Source of the DNA: a virus
DNA: 29,840 nucleotides
Virus record (IMG/VR): IMGVR_UViG_3300050821_005222
Location: 1-29,840 of that record
Strand: one strand, 5' to 3'
The translations under genes were made by a program, and so were the position numbers. The notes below the pieces were generated by a model. The model was not told the origin of the DNA and searched no databases. It saw only the letters and a list, made by a program, of their open reading frames with translations. Position 1 is the first letter of the stretch; every line of letters starts with the position of its first letter. Positions 4,318 to 22,872 of this stretch are shown here, piece after piece.

Positions 4318-4547
4318 TGGACTACGAAATCACGCGAGGGGGCTTGGTTGTTCCCAAGGAGCCGGAATCAGAGCCGGAGCGATGTGCTCTGGTGCTGACA
4401 GGCCGGCAAGGAATTGTGTTGCCGGAGTTCGCGGACGGCTACCATGGGCAGTTGCGCATTTCCAAAGCCGGCGTCGAGGTCCGGTTGCCGGTGACGGATA
4501 TTCAGTGGCAGAAGCTTTGCCAGATGGGCATAGGGGAGTGGACGTGA
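4317..4547 (+). CDS. Hypothetical protein, 76 aa
   Basis: ATG 4317 overlaps the previous stop (TGATG). GTG 4314 directly before it is also possible. The protein looks beta-rich (GRQGIVLPEFADGYHGQLRISKAGVEVRLPV) with a helical end. No family is recognised. Its own stop overlaps the next GTG (GTGA). Confidence 0.6.
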   Translation: MDYEITRGGLVVPKEPESEPERCALVLTGRQGIVLPEFADGYHGQLRISKAGVEVRLPVTDIQWQKLCQMGIGEWT

Positions 4548-4879
4548 GCGAGGAAAAACTTTTCGGTCGAATACCGATCAAATGGGTGCCGAAATTGGAG
4601 CAGGACGTTGGCGTTCCCGTGTTTGGTCCTGGAATTCTGGAGAAGCCGGAGCCGATGACAGACGAGCGGCTGCAGCAAATCCGCAATGGGCGTTATAGTC
4701 CTCCTGGCATAAGCCGCATTGCCGTTGACGAATTGTTGGCTGAAGTGGATCGGCTCCGTGCTGACTTGAAGGAGATCAAGGAACAGATTCTTGTCGGCAA
4801 GCGCGTGGCTGCGACAGATGATACCCGTAAAGCGCTGGAATGGTGCCTCTTGCTAATCGACGCCCGAGGGAGCCGATGA
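4544..4879 (+). CDS. Hypothetical coiled-coil protein, 111 aa (GTG start)
   Basis: GTG 4544 lies in a GTGA overlap with the previous stop, which decides the start. The C-terminal half contains a heptad-rich helix (ISRIAVDELLAEVDRLRADLKEIKEQI), similar in style to the small phage proteins that end in LLAEVxRLRA. The N-terminal part is Pro/Gly-rich. It is coupled to the next gene through ATGA. Confidence 0.65.
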   Translation: MSEEKLFGRIPIKWVPKLEQDVGVPVFGPGILEKPEPMTDERLQQIRNGRYSPPGISRIAVDELLAEVDRLRADLKEIKEQILVGKRVAATDDTRKALEWCLLLIDARGSR

Positions 4880-5331: not shown

Positions 5332-5516
5332 TGGGTGACCGCATACAAGAACTTGTAGCCGACGATCTTCAGGGGTTGCGTCAAAAAGTCTGGGCCGTTA
5401 TTTGCTCGCTGGACAGAAATCCCAACCGTTCAAAGGTCAGGGAGTTGTTGCTCGACCGAATCATGGAAGAGGTCTACGATCACCTTGAGATTGTAACGAG
5501 ATCCCGTCGATGCTGA
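5331..5516 (+). CDS. Small helical protein, 61 aa, upstream of terminase
   Basis: ATG 5331 overlaps the previous stop (TAATG), and the ORF overlaps the terminase start by seven bases. The protein is almost entirely helical and amphipathic (LVADDLQGLRQKVWAVICSL, then SKVRELLLDRIMEEVYDHLEI). Position and helical nature would allow a small terminase or packaging accessory role, but it is short for that and shows no DNA-binding motif. Confidence 0.65.
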   Translation: MGDRIQELVADDLQGLRQKVWAVICSLDRNPNRSKVRELLLDRIMEEVYDHLEIVTRSRRC

Positions 5517-7351
5517 GCCCCGGTAAGTGGCATGAGCAGGTCCCCAAGGAGCGGGACAAGAACCTCAAGTTCCGCGGCAACCTCTACCGACTGGCCGGCG
5601 CGAGCAAGCAGGCCCAGGCCGATCTCCGCGAAGCCTGTCGGCAGGACATCCTCTTCTACGTCAACGCCTTTTGTTGGACGTTTTCGCCGAAGCGGCGCGG
5701 CTCCAAGGTGGTGCCGTTTATTACGTGGCCGAGTCAGGACCATGCCTTCAAGGTCATACTCGAACACGTCGCAGAGCAGAAGTCGCTCGTGATCGAAAAG
5801 AGCCGGGATGAGGGAGCCACCTGGATCTTCTGCTACTGCATGGACTGGCTCTGCCACTTCCACGATTACAACCAGTGCCTCATGGTAAGCCGCGTGGGCG
5901 ACCTCGTTGATGGGAAAACACCGGACGCCTTGTTTTGGAAGATCGACTTCGCCCACAAGTTTCAACCGGACTGGCTGGCGCCGAAGACGAACCGGCTCAA
6001 GAAGTACATCGAGTATCTTGACACCAGTTCGACGACGACGGGGCAGGCGACGACGGAGGACATGGGCATCGGCGGCCGGGCGACCGTCATGGGGTTCGAT
6101 GAGTTTAGCCGCGTGCCGAACGGGCATGAGGTTTTAGAGGGCACGCGCGACACGGCGTATTGTCGCATCTTCATCAGCACACACACGGGGCCGGGCACGG
6201 CCTTTCACAAGGTGACCACCAATGGCATCACGGACAAACTCGTCCTCCACTGGAGCCAGAACCCGAACAAAAACCAGGGGCTCTACAGGTACAACGTCGA
6301 GGCCGGCAAAGTCGAAATCCTGGACAAGAAGTACGACTTTGGTGCCGGTTACAACTTCGTCATGGACGGTTCCCCATCGGGCGGGCCTTTTCCCGGTCTG
6401 AGGTCTCCGTGGTATGACCGCGAGTGTGTGGAGCGCGGAAGCAAGCGGGACGTGGCCCAAAACCTGGACATTGACGTCCAAGGCAGCAGTCACCAATTCT
6501 TTGATCCCCTGACGATCCGGCTCCTGAAGAACACCTACTGCACGCCGCCCTTGTGGGAAGGGGAGCTGCACTATGACGCCGACAGCGGCCGGCCGCTGGA
6601 GCTGGTGAAGGTCGAAGGAGGGCATTTGAAACTATGGATCAACCCCCTGCACACGGGACGAATCAAATCTGCACCCTACTTCGGGGGTGCGGACATCTCG
6701 ACTGGCTCTGGCGCGACCCCTTCGTGCGCCCAATTCTTGAACACACTTGGGGAACAGGTAGCGGAGTATGTGAATGCTCACCTGGATCCGAAAATGTTCG
6801 CTGTCCTCTGCGTCGCGCTTTGCTGGCTGTTCAAGAATGAGGAAGGTGAAGGCGCCCTGTTCGCCTGGGAGCAGCAGGGACCGGGAGCCATCTTCGGTAA
6901 GAAGGTGATCGAACTCGGCTACCGGAACATCCTCTACAAAGAGAACGAGCAGATGCTGGTGCCGAAGAACTTCACGCCAGCCGATCCGCAGCCGGGATGG
7001 TATCCCTCGCCCGAGAATCGCCGCCGGCTCCTGGAGGAATTGCGGAGCGCCTTGGCCACACGCGCCTGCACCGTGCGGAGCGAGCAGACGCTTGACGAGT
7101 GCCTGGACTTCAAGTATGGTGCCGATGGCAATGTAGAGCACGCTGGCGAAAAAGCCGGCGACGATCCGACAGCGGCGCGAATCAATCACGGCGACCGTGT
7201 AATCCCGATGGGGCTGGCCTGGAAGATGGCCGTGAAGCGTGGCGTGAACCGGCCAGCGGAGAAGAAAGCAGAGCAGGTGAAGCCGGGCTCCTTGCACTTT
7301 CGGATTCTGCTTGAGGAGCAGCGGCGGCGCGAGGAGCAAGCATGGGCCTGA
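5510..7351 (+). CDS. Terminase large subunit, 613 aa
   Basis: This is the ATP-driven DNA packaging motor and headful or site-specific nuclease. The N-terminal ATPase has a deviant Walker A, EKSRDEGATW (residues 96-105), Walker B VMGFDEFS with D197 and E198, and a coupling-type motif ISTHTG (222-227). The C-terminal RNase H-like nuclease shows D395 in GGADIS, an acidic E454 in WEQQGPG, and the D551/D552 to D562 stretch ending HGDRVIPMGLAW. The length is normal for the family. It precedes the portal by one small gene, the usual phage order. The start ATG overlaps the previous gene by seven bases. Confidence 0.93.
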   Translation: MLSPGKWHEQVPKERDKNLKFRGNLYRLAGASKQAQADLREACRQDILFYVNAFCWTFSPKRRGSKVVPFITWPSQDHAFKVILEHVAEQKSLVIEKSRDEGATWIFCYCMDWLCHFHDYNQCLMVSRVGDLVDGKTPDALFWKIDFAHKFQPDWLAPKTNRLKKYIEYLDTSSTTTGQATTEDMGIGGRATVMGFDEFSRVPNGHEVLEGTRDTAYCRIFISTHTGPGTAFHKVTTNGITDKLVLHWSQNPNKNQGLYRYNVEAGKVEILDKKYDFGAGYNFVMDGSPSGGPFPGLRSPWYDRECVERGSKRDVAQNLDIDVQGSSHQFFDPLTIRLLKNTYCTPPLWEGELHYDADSGRPLELVKVEGGHLKLWINPLHTGRIKSAPYFGGADISTGSGATPSCAQFLNTLGEQVAEYVNAHLDPKMFAVLCVALCWLFKNEEGEGALFAWEQQGPGAIFGKKVIELGYRNILYKENEQMLVPKNFTPADPQPGWYPSPENRRRLLEELRSALATRACTVRSEQTLDECLDFKYGADGNVEHAGEKAGDDPTAARINHGDRVIPMGLAWKMAVKRGVNRPAEKKAEQVKPGSLHFRILLEEQRRREEQAWA

Positions 7352-7698
7352 TGGGCTTCGTGAACTGGCTGAAGTCCTTAGCAGAACCGGACAAGTCGGC
7401 GGCACGTCGGCCGGTTGGCATGTCGAGGCGGTGTTTCCTTCGGGCGCTCGGCGTCGGTTCTGTGACGGTCTGCATGGGCGGAGTGCTGTTGGCCGAGACC
7501 CCGTTTGTTCCGACGACGGTCAATTATGGCCTTGAGGTTACAGAAGACACCTTTGGTGAACTCATTGAGATGACTCTGCGAGACCTCGGTAGGTTGAAAT
7601 TTCAGGAGATCGTTGAGGACCTCCAGAAGCATCAGGCACTGCGTCACCTAATTACTAAGGACCGCCTCGATCTGTCGGTTTTGATCCAAGCAGGTTAG
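7342..7698 (+). CDS. Tat-motif protein carrying a capsid N-terminal-arm copy, 118 aa
   Basis: The start is ATG 7342 behind GAGGAG, overlapping the end of the terminase. Residues 28-34 are SRRCFLR, a full twin-arginine consensus, followed by a hydrophobic stretch (ALGVGSVTVCMGGVLLA) as in Tat signals. Residues 71-111 align without gaps with residues 13-53 of the major capsid protein at 17995-19050, 21 of 41 identical by my count (shared TLRDLG, EI, DLQKH). The protein stops where the capsid body would begin. The motif is internal to a 26-residue N-terminal extension unless translation starts at ATG 7420. Function unknown. Confidence 0.75.
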   Translation: MGLMGFVNWLKSLAEPDKSAARRPVGMSRRCFLRALGVGSVTVCMGGVLLAETPFVPTTVNYGLEVTEDTFGELIEMTLRDLGRLKFQEIVEDLQKHQALRHLITKDRLDLSVLIQAG

Positions 7699-7748: not shown

Positions 7749-9509
7749 ATGGCGATGCAGCGCTCCCGCCTCGCCTTGCGCCGCTACCGTGAGGAACGCC
7801 GCGAAGCCGTCCGGCAAATGGTCGGCCGCCACTGGTCCGAAGAAGGCACCCAGGAAAAAGTCCCCGTCAACCTCATCTCCAAGTACGTCAAGATCGTCGG
7901 CCGCAGCATGGTCCCCAAGGAGCCGCGGGTCCTGCTCTCGACCTTCGACCGCGCGCACAAGCCGATGGTGTCGGCCTGCCAAACGTGGGTCAATAAAGAG
8001 ATCGAGCAACTCCGACTTGCCAACACGCTCCAGCGCTGCGTGATCGACGGTCTCTTCTCCATCGGCATTTGCAAGGTGGCCCTGGGCACGCCGGCCGACT
8101 CGGCGCGTATGTCGTGGAACCTGAAAGCTGGCAGCGTCTTTTGCGAGCGCGTGGATCTCGACGACTTTGTGTTTGACATCCATGCGCGGGACTTCCAAGA
8201 ATGTTCCTTCATCGGCCACAGATACCGAGTGCCGCTGGAGGTGATCCGTGACGACAAGCACTACAACCGCCAGGCGCGCGAGGCGCTCGTTGCCCACTAC
8301 GACCAAGCCTTCAACCTGGAAGGCGATGAACGAATCAGCATGCTCGGCCGAAGCTACTACGGCATTGATAGCGAAGAGTTTGAGGACCTTATTGACCTCT
8401 GGGAAGTGTACCTTCCCCGGCATCGGCTCGTGCTTACTCTCGCAGACGATTCGCTTACTGGAGCGAATGAAAGCCGAGCTGGCGGAGCTGGTGTGCCTCT
8501 TAGAGAGCAACCCTGGCTCGGGCCGGACACGGGGCCTTACCATCTGCTCGGTTATGAACGGGTGCCGGGGAACCCTATGCCGAAGGGGCCGATCCAGGAC
8601 CTCCTCGACCTGCACTACTTCATCAACGGAACCTTCCGCAAGCTCATGCAGCAGGCGAATCGGCAAAAAGAAGTCACCCTGATCCAGGGTGGGGCTGCCG
8701 AGGACGGTAGCCGTATCCTCGAAGCAGATGATGGGACTATGCCTCGCGTGGACAATCCGCAGGGGGCCAAGGTTGTCAGCTTTGGTGGGCCGAACCAGCA
8801 GAACTTCGCCATGTTCGGCCAGGCATACGACCTTTTCAACCGCGAGGCTGGCAACCTGGAGCTGATGGGCGGCGAGGGGCCCCAGTCGCGCACGCTCGGC
8901 CAGGACAAGATGCTCAACGCCAACGCCTCGGGGCAAATCACCGACATGCAGGATCAGACCACGATCTTTGTAGCCGACGTCGTGAAGGCGATGATGTGGT
9001 ACTGGTGGCACGATCCGCAGAAGGTCATGCGCTCGGTTCACTCCGTCCAGGGGCTGCCCGAGTTCAACATCCAGCGCTTCGTGAAGCCCCAGGACCGGCA
9101 GCGCGTCAACTTCGCGGAGCTGGACATTCGGATCGACCCGTACAGTCTCCGGCACCAGACGCCACAGGAACGCATGGCGGCGATGAACCAAGTCGTGTCG
9201 CAGATCATCACGCCGATGATGCAGATTCTCGTCCAGCAAGGCATCGCTTTTGACGCCAACGCCTACCTGCAAAAGCTTGGCGAGTACATGGACGCACCGG
9301 ACTTGGCGGAGATCCTGACCATCATGGAGCCGCCGCAGATGTCCTCACCAGGCATGAACCGGCCGGGCAAGCCGGGAACGACGAGCCGTACCTACGAGCG
9401 GCATTCGAGTGGCGCGGCGAGCCGATATGGCACGGACATTGGCCGCATGAACGCCATGGCACCGAAGCAGAATGGCCAGCCTCAGACGAACGGGAGCCCG
9501 ATGCGATGA
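7749..9509 (+). CDS. Portal protein, 586 aa
   Basis: This is probably the dodecameric portal at the capsid vertex through which DNA enters, docking the terminase. Support comes from its position directly after the terminase block, its length, a basic N-terminus (RSRLALRRYREERREAVRQMVGRHW), a long helical C-terminal part (QERMAAMNQVVSQIITPMMQILVQQG) and a Pro/Gly/Asn-rich disordered tail. ATG 7749 has no Shine-Dalgarno. The frame is open back to 7707 with no ATG, GTG or TTG, and the upstream codons (AKHKYDLSRLV) look like family sequence, so a non-standard start (for example CTG 7734) is possible. Confidence 0.85.
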   Translation: MAMQRSRLALRRYREERREAVRQMVGRHWSEEGTQEKVPVNLISKYVKIVGRSMVPKEPRVLLSTFDRAHKPMVSACQTWVNKEIEQLRLANTLQRCVIDGLFSIGICKVALGTPADSARMSWNLKAGSVFCERVDLDDFVFDIHARDFQECSFIGHRYRVPLEVIRDDKHYNRQAREALVAHYDQAFNLEGDERISMLGRSYYGIDSEEFEDLIDLWEVYLPRHRLVLTLADDSLTGANESRAGGAGVPLREQPWLGPDTGPYHLLGYERVPGNPMPKGPIQDLLDLHYFINGTFRKLMQQANRQKEVTLIQGGAAEDGSRILEADDGTMPRVDNPQGAKVVSFGGPNQQNFAMFGQAYDLFNREAGNLELMGGEGPQSRTLGQDKMLNANASGQITDMQDQTTIFVADVVKAMMWYWWHDPQKVMRSVHSVQGLPEFNIQRFVKPQDRQRVNFAELDIRIDPYSLRHQTPQERMAAMNQVVSQIITPMMQILVQQGIAFDANAYLQKLGEYMDAPDLAEILTIMEPPQMSSPGMNRPGKPGTTSRTYERHSSGAASRYGTDIGRMNAMAPKQNGQPQTNGSPMR

Positions 9510-17994: not shown

Positions 17995-19050
17995 GTGGCC
18001 GTCACCCCGAATGCTTTAACCGCAGTTGCCATCGGCGACCTTGTTAATACCACGCTGCGCGATCTCGGTGAAATGCGCTTCACCGAAATTGCCACGGACC
18101 TCCAAAAGCACACCGCCATGCGGAACCTGCTGAAGGTGAACCGCATTGTGCTGGAGTCCGGCTACGGGGTGCAGTGGGATGTCATGGTGAATCAGACCGG
18201 CGCCGCTGCCAACGTCGGTCTGGGTGCCTCCGACAACGTCAACGATGTTGACACGATGGTCCAGGCCACGGCCGACTGGAGGAACAGCACCACCAACTAT
18301 TCGATCATCGGCCAAGTGATCGACATGAACCGGGAGCCGCGGCGGATCGTCAACCTCGTTCAGACCAAGCGCATCGCGGCCCTGATCTCACTGGCCGAAC
18401 TGATGGAGGCAAACTTCTGGGGGCCGCCGGTTCCGATCACGGACCTTGTGACCCCCTGGGGCGTCAACACCTGGATCGTCAAGAACGCGACCGAAGGCTT
18501 CAATGGTGGCGTTCCCTCTGGTTACACGACCATCGGCCTCAACCCGACCGTCTACCCTCGATGGAACAACTGGACTTATCAGTACACCAGTGTTTCCCGT
18601 GACGATCTCATTCGCCACTGGAGGAAGGCGGCGACGTTCACGGACTTCCAGCCGCCGGTTGACGGTATCCCCACGTTCAACACCGGCGACAACTATGGCT
18701 TTTACACAAACTATGGCGTCATTGGTCCCCTTGAGGAAGCCGTCGAATCCCAGAATGACAATCTGGGGAATGACCTGGCTTCCAAAGACGGGCTCACAAT
18801 GTTCCGCCGCGTTGGCGTAACCTGGGTGCCGAAACTCGAAGCGGATACGACGAACCCCGTGTACGGCCTCAACTGGGGCTGGTTCAAGACCTATATTCTC
18901 CGCGGCTGGTGGCTGAAGGAAACGCGCGTGCCGATCTATCCGGGGCAGCACACGATCTCGGCACATTTCCTCGACAGCACGTATCAGTTTATCCTCAAGA
19001 ACCGCCGCGTTCATTTCGTTCTGGCCACGGGAACGACAACGCCTTCTTAA
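17995..19050 (+). CDS. Major capsid protein, HK97-fold type, 351 aa (GTG start)
   Basis: It forms the icosahedral shell. Evidence is its position after the probable scaffold, a typical length, an N-terminal helical arm (residues 13-53, TLRDLGEMRFTEIATDLQKH) and a beta-rich, aromatic body with NREPRRIVNLVQTKRIAALISLAELMEANF as the likely long spine helix. It ends in a beta-strand segment (STYQFILKNRRVHFVLATG). GTG 17995 has a good AAAGGGAG. The N-terminal arm is duplicated in the 118-aa protein at 7342-7698. Confidence 0.85.
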   Translation: MAVTPNALTAVAIGDLVNTTLRDLGEMRFTEIATDLQKHTAMRNLLKVNRIVLESGYGVQWDVMVNQTGAAANVGLGASDNVNDVDTMVQATADWRNSTTNYSIIGQVIDMNREPRRIVNLVQTKRIAALISLAELMEANFWGPPVPITDLVTPWGVNTWIVKNATEGFNGGVPSGYTTIGLNPTVYPRWNNWTYQYTSVSRDDLIRHWRKAATFTDFQPPVDGIPTFNTGDNYGFYTNYGVIGPLEEAVESQNDNLGNDLASKDGLTMFRRVGVTWVPKLEADTTNPVYGLNWGWFKTYILRGWWLKETRVPIYPGQHTISAHFLDSTYQFILKNRRVHFVLATGTTTPS

Positions 19051-22170: not shown

Positions 22171-22872
22171 ATGGCACTGAAACTCCTCCTACATGCTGGC
22201 TGCGGCTCAAAGCTGAACAAGCCGCCTTACGAGTTCGGCGCGTACAAGGAAGTGCGGCTCGACTGCAACAAGATGCTGCAGCCGGATATCGTCGCCTCCA
22301 TCGTCGCCATGCCCATGATCGACGATGCCAGCTACGACGCCATCTTCGCCTCGCATGTGCTGGAGCATCTGTACGCGCACGAGGTGTCCATGGCCCTGTC
22401 CGAGTTTGCCCGCGTTCTGAAGCCGGGCGGCAAGATACTCGTCCAAGTGCCGGACCTGCAGGCGATCGGCGGGCGACTGGCGCTCGACCAGGCCGACCAT
22501 GTGCTCTACATGAGCGCTGCCGGCGCGATCACGGCCCTGGACGTTCTCTATGGGCACCAGGCTTCCGTGGGCGGTGGCAACCTCTTCATGTCGCACAAGA
22601 CCGGCTTCACGAGTTCGGTCATGAAAAATGCGTTGCAGGCGGTCGGCTTCACGAAAGTTGAGATTGACCGGGACAAGTTTGAAATCAAAGCACGAGCACT
22701 CAAACCGGAGATAGTCGATGAGCAAAAAGAAGAAGGAGCCGAAAACACCGCACCCTCACGAGAAGATTCCCGAAGTGGTGCAGACGTTGGAGGAGCGGGT
22801 AACGGCCATCGAGAAGTTCCTGAACGAGCACTTCGGGAGACCGGGGTGCCCTGTGCCTCCGCAGGAGGATGA
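22171..22872 (+). CDS. SAM-dependent class I methyltransferase, 233 aa
   Basis: Motif I is LHAGCGSK (residues 7-14) with acidic D31 after it. DAIFASHVLEHL (57-68) and LKPGGKILVQVPD (83-95) are typical of the Methyltransf_11-type fold. The substrate is unknown and could be a glycan, given the neighbouring glycosyltransferase. From about residue 183 the frame overlaps the next gene in another frame and turns into Ala/Gly/Arg/Ser-rich sequence that does not resemble a fold. The natural end may have been near residue 180, with the stop lost. RBS AAAGGG. Confidence 0.75.
   Translation: MALKLLLHAGCGSKLNKPPYEFGAYKEVRLDCNKMLQPDIVASIVAMPMIDDASYDAIFASHVLEHLYAHEVSMALSEFARVLKPGGKILVQVPDLQAIGGRLALDQADHVLYMSAAGAITALDVLYGHQASVGGGNLFMSHKTGFTSSVMKNALQAVGFTKVEIDRDKFEIKARALKPEIVDEQKEEGAENTAPSREDSRSGADVGGAGNGHREVPERALRETGVPCASAGG

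Follow-up and report, generated by a model that had tools for sequence, protein, structure and literature searches.

A small chimeric gene between terminase and portal in a probable planctomycete phage joins a twin-arginine-like leader to a piece of the capsid N-terminal arm

Introduction

It is already known that capsid proteins trigger bacterial immunity and that phages interfere with virion assembly. In the CapRel-SJ46 system a capsid protein is sensed by bacterial immunity (PMC9712102), and in staphylococcal Thoeris a capsid protein likewise triggers the immune response (PMC11312562). Recognition of capsid protein in the cell is a possible reason for capsid mimics to exist; in both systems, however, the trigger is the whole capsid protein, and the accessible portions of these reports describe no phage-encoded decoy made of a capsid fragment. 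Tab, a prophage-encoded tail assembly blocker, interferes with the virion assembly of competitors (PMC10884400). It resembles what is proposed here in being a phage-encoded protein that hinders competing virions, but it blocks tail assembly, and neither capsid homology nor a Tat leader is reported for it in the text available. Our literature searches turned up no earlier case of a Tat leader in a phage or of a decoy made from a capsid fragment.

Here we examine a gene in a 29,840-nucleotide viral sequence (IMG/VR record IMGVR_UViG_3300050821_005222; hereafter the window), for which a preliminary description had reported a piece of the major capsid protein (MCP) behind a twin-arginine (RR) motif. 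We refer to it as ORF 7342, after the position of its start codon (Table 1).

Results

Table 1. Annotated features of the window, with positions counted from its first nucleotide.
Feature	Position	Strand	Remarks
Second MCP-piece gene, 111 aa, beginning with a copy of MCP 267-291 (LFGRIPIKWVPKLEQDVGVPVFG)	4544-4879	+	GGGGAG site; GTGA overlap with upstream ORF
Terminase large subunit (terL)	5510-7351	+	Stop overlaps start of ORF 7342 (ATGGGCCTGA)
Shine-Dalgarno GAGGAG	7331-7336	+	5 bases ahead of ATG 7342; same letters in sister lineage
Chimeric accessory ORF (ORF 7342), 118 aa: RR/hydrophobic leader and MCP N-arm piece	7342-7698	+	Frame open over 118 codons
Twin-arginine-type motif SRRCFLR, residues 28-34 of ORF 7342	7423-7443	+
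Uncharged hydrophobic stretch ALGVGSVTVCMGGVLLA, residues 35-51 of ORF 7342	7444-7494	+	Signal h-region or membrane anchor
Diverged copy of MCP residues 8-53, residues 66-111 of ORF 7342	7537-7674	+
Portal protein, SU10/podovirus-like	7749-9509	+
Major capsid protein (MCP), HK97 fold	17995-19050	+	Copied N-arm at 18016-18153

We found that ORF 7342 is flanked by the terminase and portal genes, as first described, and that its start overlaps the terL stop by 10 bases, which suggests coupling to terL rather than a promoter and terminator of its own. The ribosome site ahead of it is not a common feature, GGAG standing at the matching position before only ~5-6% of ATG or GTG codons in these sequences. 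Upon examining the leader, we observe the order typical of twin-arginine signal peptides, S/T-R-R-x-F-L-K/R followed by an uncharged h-region. Both elements of the preliminary description, a complete motif and a hydrophobic stretch, are thus present, but the match to the curated Tat profile (NCBIfam TIGR01409) reaches 13.4 bits, below the cut-off of 16.7, so we call the leader Tat-like instead of treating it as a certified Tat signal. It further differs from twin-arginine signal peptides in its long n-region, in the lack of a clear AxA cleavage site and in its cargo, a phage capsid piece. At the candidate site, LLA-E, position -3 is not occupied by a small residue, and the leader may instead be a membrane anchor; the protein is probably membrane-directed.

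Next, we investigated the capsid-like part. The ungapped match of residues 71-111 to MCP residues 13-53 (21 of 41 identical) was reproduced, and local alignment widens it to residues 66-111 against MCP 8-53 with 22 of 46 identical, again without a gap. The local score is 114, compared with a maximum of 55 in 5000 shuffles, tblastn and HMM searches return E-values of ~1e-8 to 1e-11, and homology to the N-arm of the MCP family is found at 34.8 bits (E = 6.4e-9 over all ORFs searched). That the protein encoded at 17995 is the MCP was confirmed by its match to NCBIfam NF033394 (capsid_maj_Podo; E = 2.4e-28) and by an AlphaFold model built from 75 sequences (pLDDT 83), whose best structural matches are many HK97-fold capsids; this model replaced an earlier, poor one from 19 sequences (pLDDT 48). 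In the monomer model, in which the arm is of low confidence at its N-terminal end, the copied piece is the flexible N-terminal arm and ends where the first core strand starts. Of the parts of a complete HK97 fold (N-arm, E-loop, P and A domains), ORF 7342 has only a homologue of the N-arm of the MCP in the same genome: about 300 capsid residues are absent, and nine of the 46 residues of the piece are never found at their positions in 75 MCPs.

The piece and the arm in the MCP gene share 58% DNA identity. GC3 is 0.75 in the 5' half of ORF 7342, 0.55 in the MCP-like 3' part (7537-7695) and 0.76 in the MCP gene, so that ORF 7342 is chimeric in composition; the 58% identity together with the differing GC3 rules out an assembly duplicate or a copied read. 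Downstream of the capsid gene, the window also encodes a methyltransferase domain protein (22171-22872; Pfam Methyltransf_11, E = 5e-11).

When comparing the window with its sister lineage, we observe a clean exchange of the gene. The sister is represented by contigs L235 (TerL 97% identical) and G009 (MCP 99% and portal 94% identical), which carry the same sample number in their names and which we infer to be one genome. Sister and window have a common sequence up to the ATG of ORF 7342 and again from the last codons (GCAGGTTAG), and between these points the sister encodes an unrelated protein (beginning MGLSDEDLEKL and ending IDARQENPIAG) with the same start and stop. ORF 7342 is therefore an exchangeable cassette whose translation start is retained, present in one lineage and replaced in a close relative between conserved flanks, as in accessory (moron-like) cassettes. 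More distant relatives, too, differ in what lies between terL and portal, and several of them have genes there for small proteins containing hydrophobic segments. Such proteins, with apparent membrane segments, occupy the slot in G001, G002, G008 and G011, and three of this set that were tested gave no confident Pfam family.

With the MCP as a single query we detected 22 loci in viral contigs, and with an MCP alignment 80 loci, with no match in the phage collection. Nine further loci were found in genome assemblies, mostly Planctomycetota bins (including Brocadiaceae and Bythopirellula bins), the exceptions being one unclassified bacterium and one Sumerlaeota bin. Since the MCP relatives in genome assemblies are mostly from Planctomycetota bins, the host of the phage is probably a planctomycete. 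Peptide patterns of ORF 7342 retrieved no orthologue from the viral contigs, the phage collection or 392 Planctomycetota genomes; a match with an internal stop in G040 was discarded, as it overlaps that phage's own MCP.

Upon searching 34,400 ORFs of the relatives with the capsid profile, and setting aside full MCPs and pieces at contig edges, we identified seven small MCP-piece genes in six phages, two of them in the window. ORF 7342 appears in this search with MCP 10-52, and the same stretch recurs in G027 behind a basic amphipathic leader (MFRWLKRLFRREPEP). The L166 gene carries MCP 87-137 and 297-331 behind an RR leader (MERRGFFGTLVALLTLGFLPRAKA, MERRGFF...), and the G006 gene carries MCP 12-55, 93-143 and 301-333. 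The remaining three, in G003 (MCP 264-293), G015 (266-293) and the window (ORF 4544; 267-291), are individually weak matches to the profile (E = 0.001-0.05); in comparisons with the MCP of their own genome, shuffling gives p = 1e-7 for G003 and 2e-6 for ORF 4544, and for the L166 piece p = 7.5e-12. Near-identical boundaries thus recur, 10-52 twice and approximately 265-292 three times. The same search with TerL, in comparison, returned no internal fragment and with the portal only one (G027, E = 7e-4), with both proteins being longer than the MCP and about as often sampled. GGAG stands at the right distance before six of the seven ORFs against a background of ~5%, a contrast somewhat inflated by analyst-chosen starts. 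The nearest MCPs to these pieces belong to the same subgroup but in most cases come from other genomes than the piece itself, which fits old captures travelling as cassettes. Fifty-four portal-based loci contained no further MCP-piece gene, and Pfam, PHROGs and NCBIfam gave no confident family for the MCP-piece proteins.

Several of these genes have further features of their own. The MCP copy of ORF 4544 is followed by an unrelated charged helical region, and sister contig L235 does not share this stretch. The L166 gene (L166:15309-15926) encodes its RR leader with an internally deleted mini-capsid, ~4 kb downstream of the MCP gene, and a 147-residue mini-capsid protein with three colinear MCP segments lies downstream of the portal at L156:10563-11003 on the minus strand. 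The portal fragment of G027, which also has an MCP-piece gene, is a possible piece in a small ORF (L143:5490-5888; portal profile 137-172). A mini-MCP in G013 (L129) was left out of the seven as weak alone (shuffle p = 0.0013), and the WLKxL..EP shared by the N-termini of the ORF 7342 and G027 proteins was not counted (p = 0.015).

A strict RR-leader scan returned seven ORFs, including four small genes from the clade studied here (window, G003, G013 and L166), compared with 0-2 matches in Markov sequences and five in reversed sequences. The G013 leader (L128) scores above the curated Tat cut-off, at 18.5 bits, and two of the four genes, those of the window and L166, carry significant MCP pieces. 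The RR-leader protein of G003 (L070:5956-6296) is suggestive and was not counted as an MCP-piece gene; its similarity to MCP 110-129 has p = 0.015, and its virion-protein motif GFxxGalWxxl...VNTGTxxSAxWV has E ~0.01. The separation of a capsid-arm piece from its capsid, behind an RR/hydrophobic leader, stands as originally described and is strengthened by L166 and G027. The expectation that related phages pair a Tat-tagged leader with a capsid piece is borne out in principle, as L166 joins an RR leader to MCP pieces, but not at the level of the gene itself, with no orthologue of ORF 7342 in the collections searched and an unrelated gene in the sister slot.

Finally, we asked what selection the piece records. 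Its divergence from the MCP shows overall constraint (Fisher p = 6e-4), which may predate the capture. Neutral drift of ~0.3-0.45 substitutions per site fits both the identity and the open frame of the piece, and simulations of the hydrophobic pattern and of stop codons do not separate selection from drift. As ORF 7342 is without an orthologue in the collections searched, any selection after capture is putative. The conservation of TLRDLG and DLQKH, previously taken as a sign of retained function, is a weak argument for it, since it possibly dates from the capsid-protein stage and the neutral simulations allow drift since capture.

Discussion

We read the observed chimera, with its intact translation start, its cassette swap and its recurring counterparts in relatives, as a maintained capsid mimic that acts as a decoy or competitor, a tentative reading to which we assign a probability of about 0.4. 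Being translationally coupled to terL, this exchangeable accessory gene would probably be expressed late; the C-terminal half of its product would have diverged from the N-terminal arm of a related phage's HK97-fold MCP, and the twin-arginine-like leader would place the protein in the inner membrane or carry it across, fixing the place where the mimic acts. The arm may still fold and dock where the MCP arm or free MCP docks, and, once docked, could act on a binding partner of capsid protein as decoy or competitor; at a guess, the likeliest targets are a capsid sensor of the host or capsomers made by a competing relative. A mimic occupying an MCP binding site is favoured because the piece is the N-arm and ends at the first core strand. 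Further support comes from the strength of the arm match and the same 10-52 piece in G027, from the excess of MCP pieces over TerL and portal pieces, from two RR-leader proteins that carry MCP pieces together with a G013 leader that passes the Tat cut-off, from GGAG before six of the seven ORFs and from the exchange in the sister, whose boundaries fall cleanly at the start and stop codons, and from capsid-sensing immunity known elsewhere (CapRel, Thoeris), which we assume by analogy to operate in Planctomycetota. Against it, binding in the manner of the MCP arm may have been lost, because nine of 46 residues are unseen in MCPs; an RR leader is missing from most MCP-piece genes; export of the arm by its leader does not readily agree with a cytosolic target; and the sub-cut-off Tat score, the missing AxA site and the five matches in the reversed control weaken the case for a Tat signal.

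The main rival, which we consider a serious possibility, is that the slot is a site where illegitimate recombination joins fragments of host and phage genes, here a host-type signal and an MCP fragment, giving chimeric debris that is translated without a selected role. The complete change of slot content between the sister lineages and among relatives, the differing GC3 of the two halves, the nine unseen residues and a drift compatible with neutral simulations are all consistent with debris. Debris would be expected from any gene, yet the counts are zero for TerL, one for the portal and seven for the MCP; the recurrence of near-identical boundaries and the strong ribosome sites before six of seven genes likewise argue against debris. 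An improbable alternative is a virion or assembly factor: its arm would replace an MCP arm, in trans, in the procapsid of the same phage, and its hydrophobic leader would hold the heads at the membrane as they assemble. The position beside terL and portal, the coverage of the arm and the several capsid segments retained by the mini-MCPs of G006 and L166 would suit such a role, but an assembly factor should be conserved, and this one is absent even from a sister with a 99% identical MCP; moreover, an N-in leader would carry the arm to the opposite side of the membrane.

Still less favoured is the idea that a second MCP gene decayed and left this remnant, read-through being the only fusion involved. 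The G006 and G013 ORFs do resemble internally deleted MCPs, but here the arm stands alone behind an intact start and leader, with no MCP trace downstream, and the sister is entirely without the piece. Chance similarity or an assembly artefact is refuted by the gap between the alignment score and the shuffle maximum, by a DNA identity too low for a copied read and by independent cases on other contigs.

Returning to the capsid mimic, the sequence comparisons suggest that a recurring mimicry trick may be predicted across related phages. The extended form, in which one clade of Planctomycetota phages keeps producing small and exchangeable mimics of the capsid as decoys for capsid-recognising proteins, with Tat-type leaders sending some of them to the membrane or periplasm, we regard as unlikely. 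Since folded proteins are the cargo of Tat, Tat-tagged mimics might even export a cytosolic sensor bound to them. The MCP-piece genes supply defined short peptides for direct fishing of binding partners, and, if the mimic reading is true, the repeated joining of capsid pieces to leaders at sites prone to swapping would indicate that capsid recognition is under pressure in Planctomycetota.
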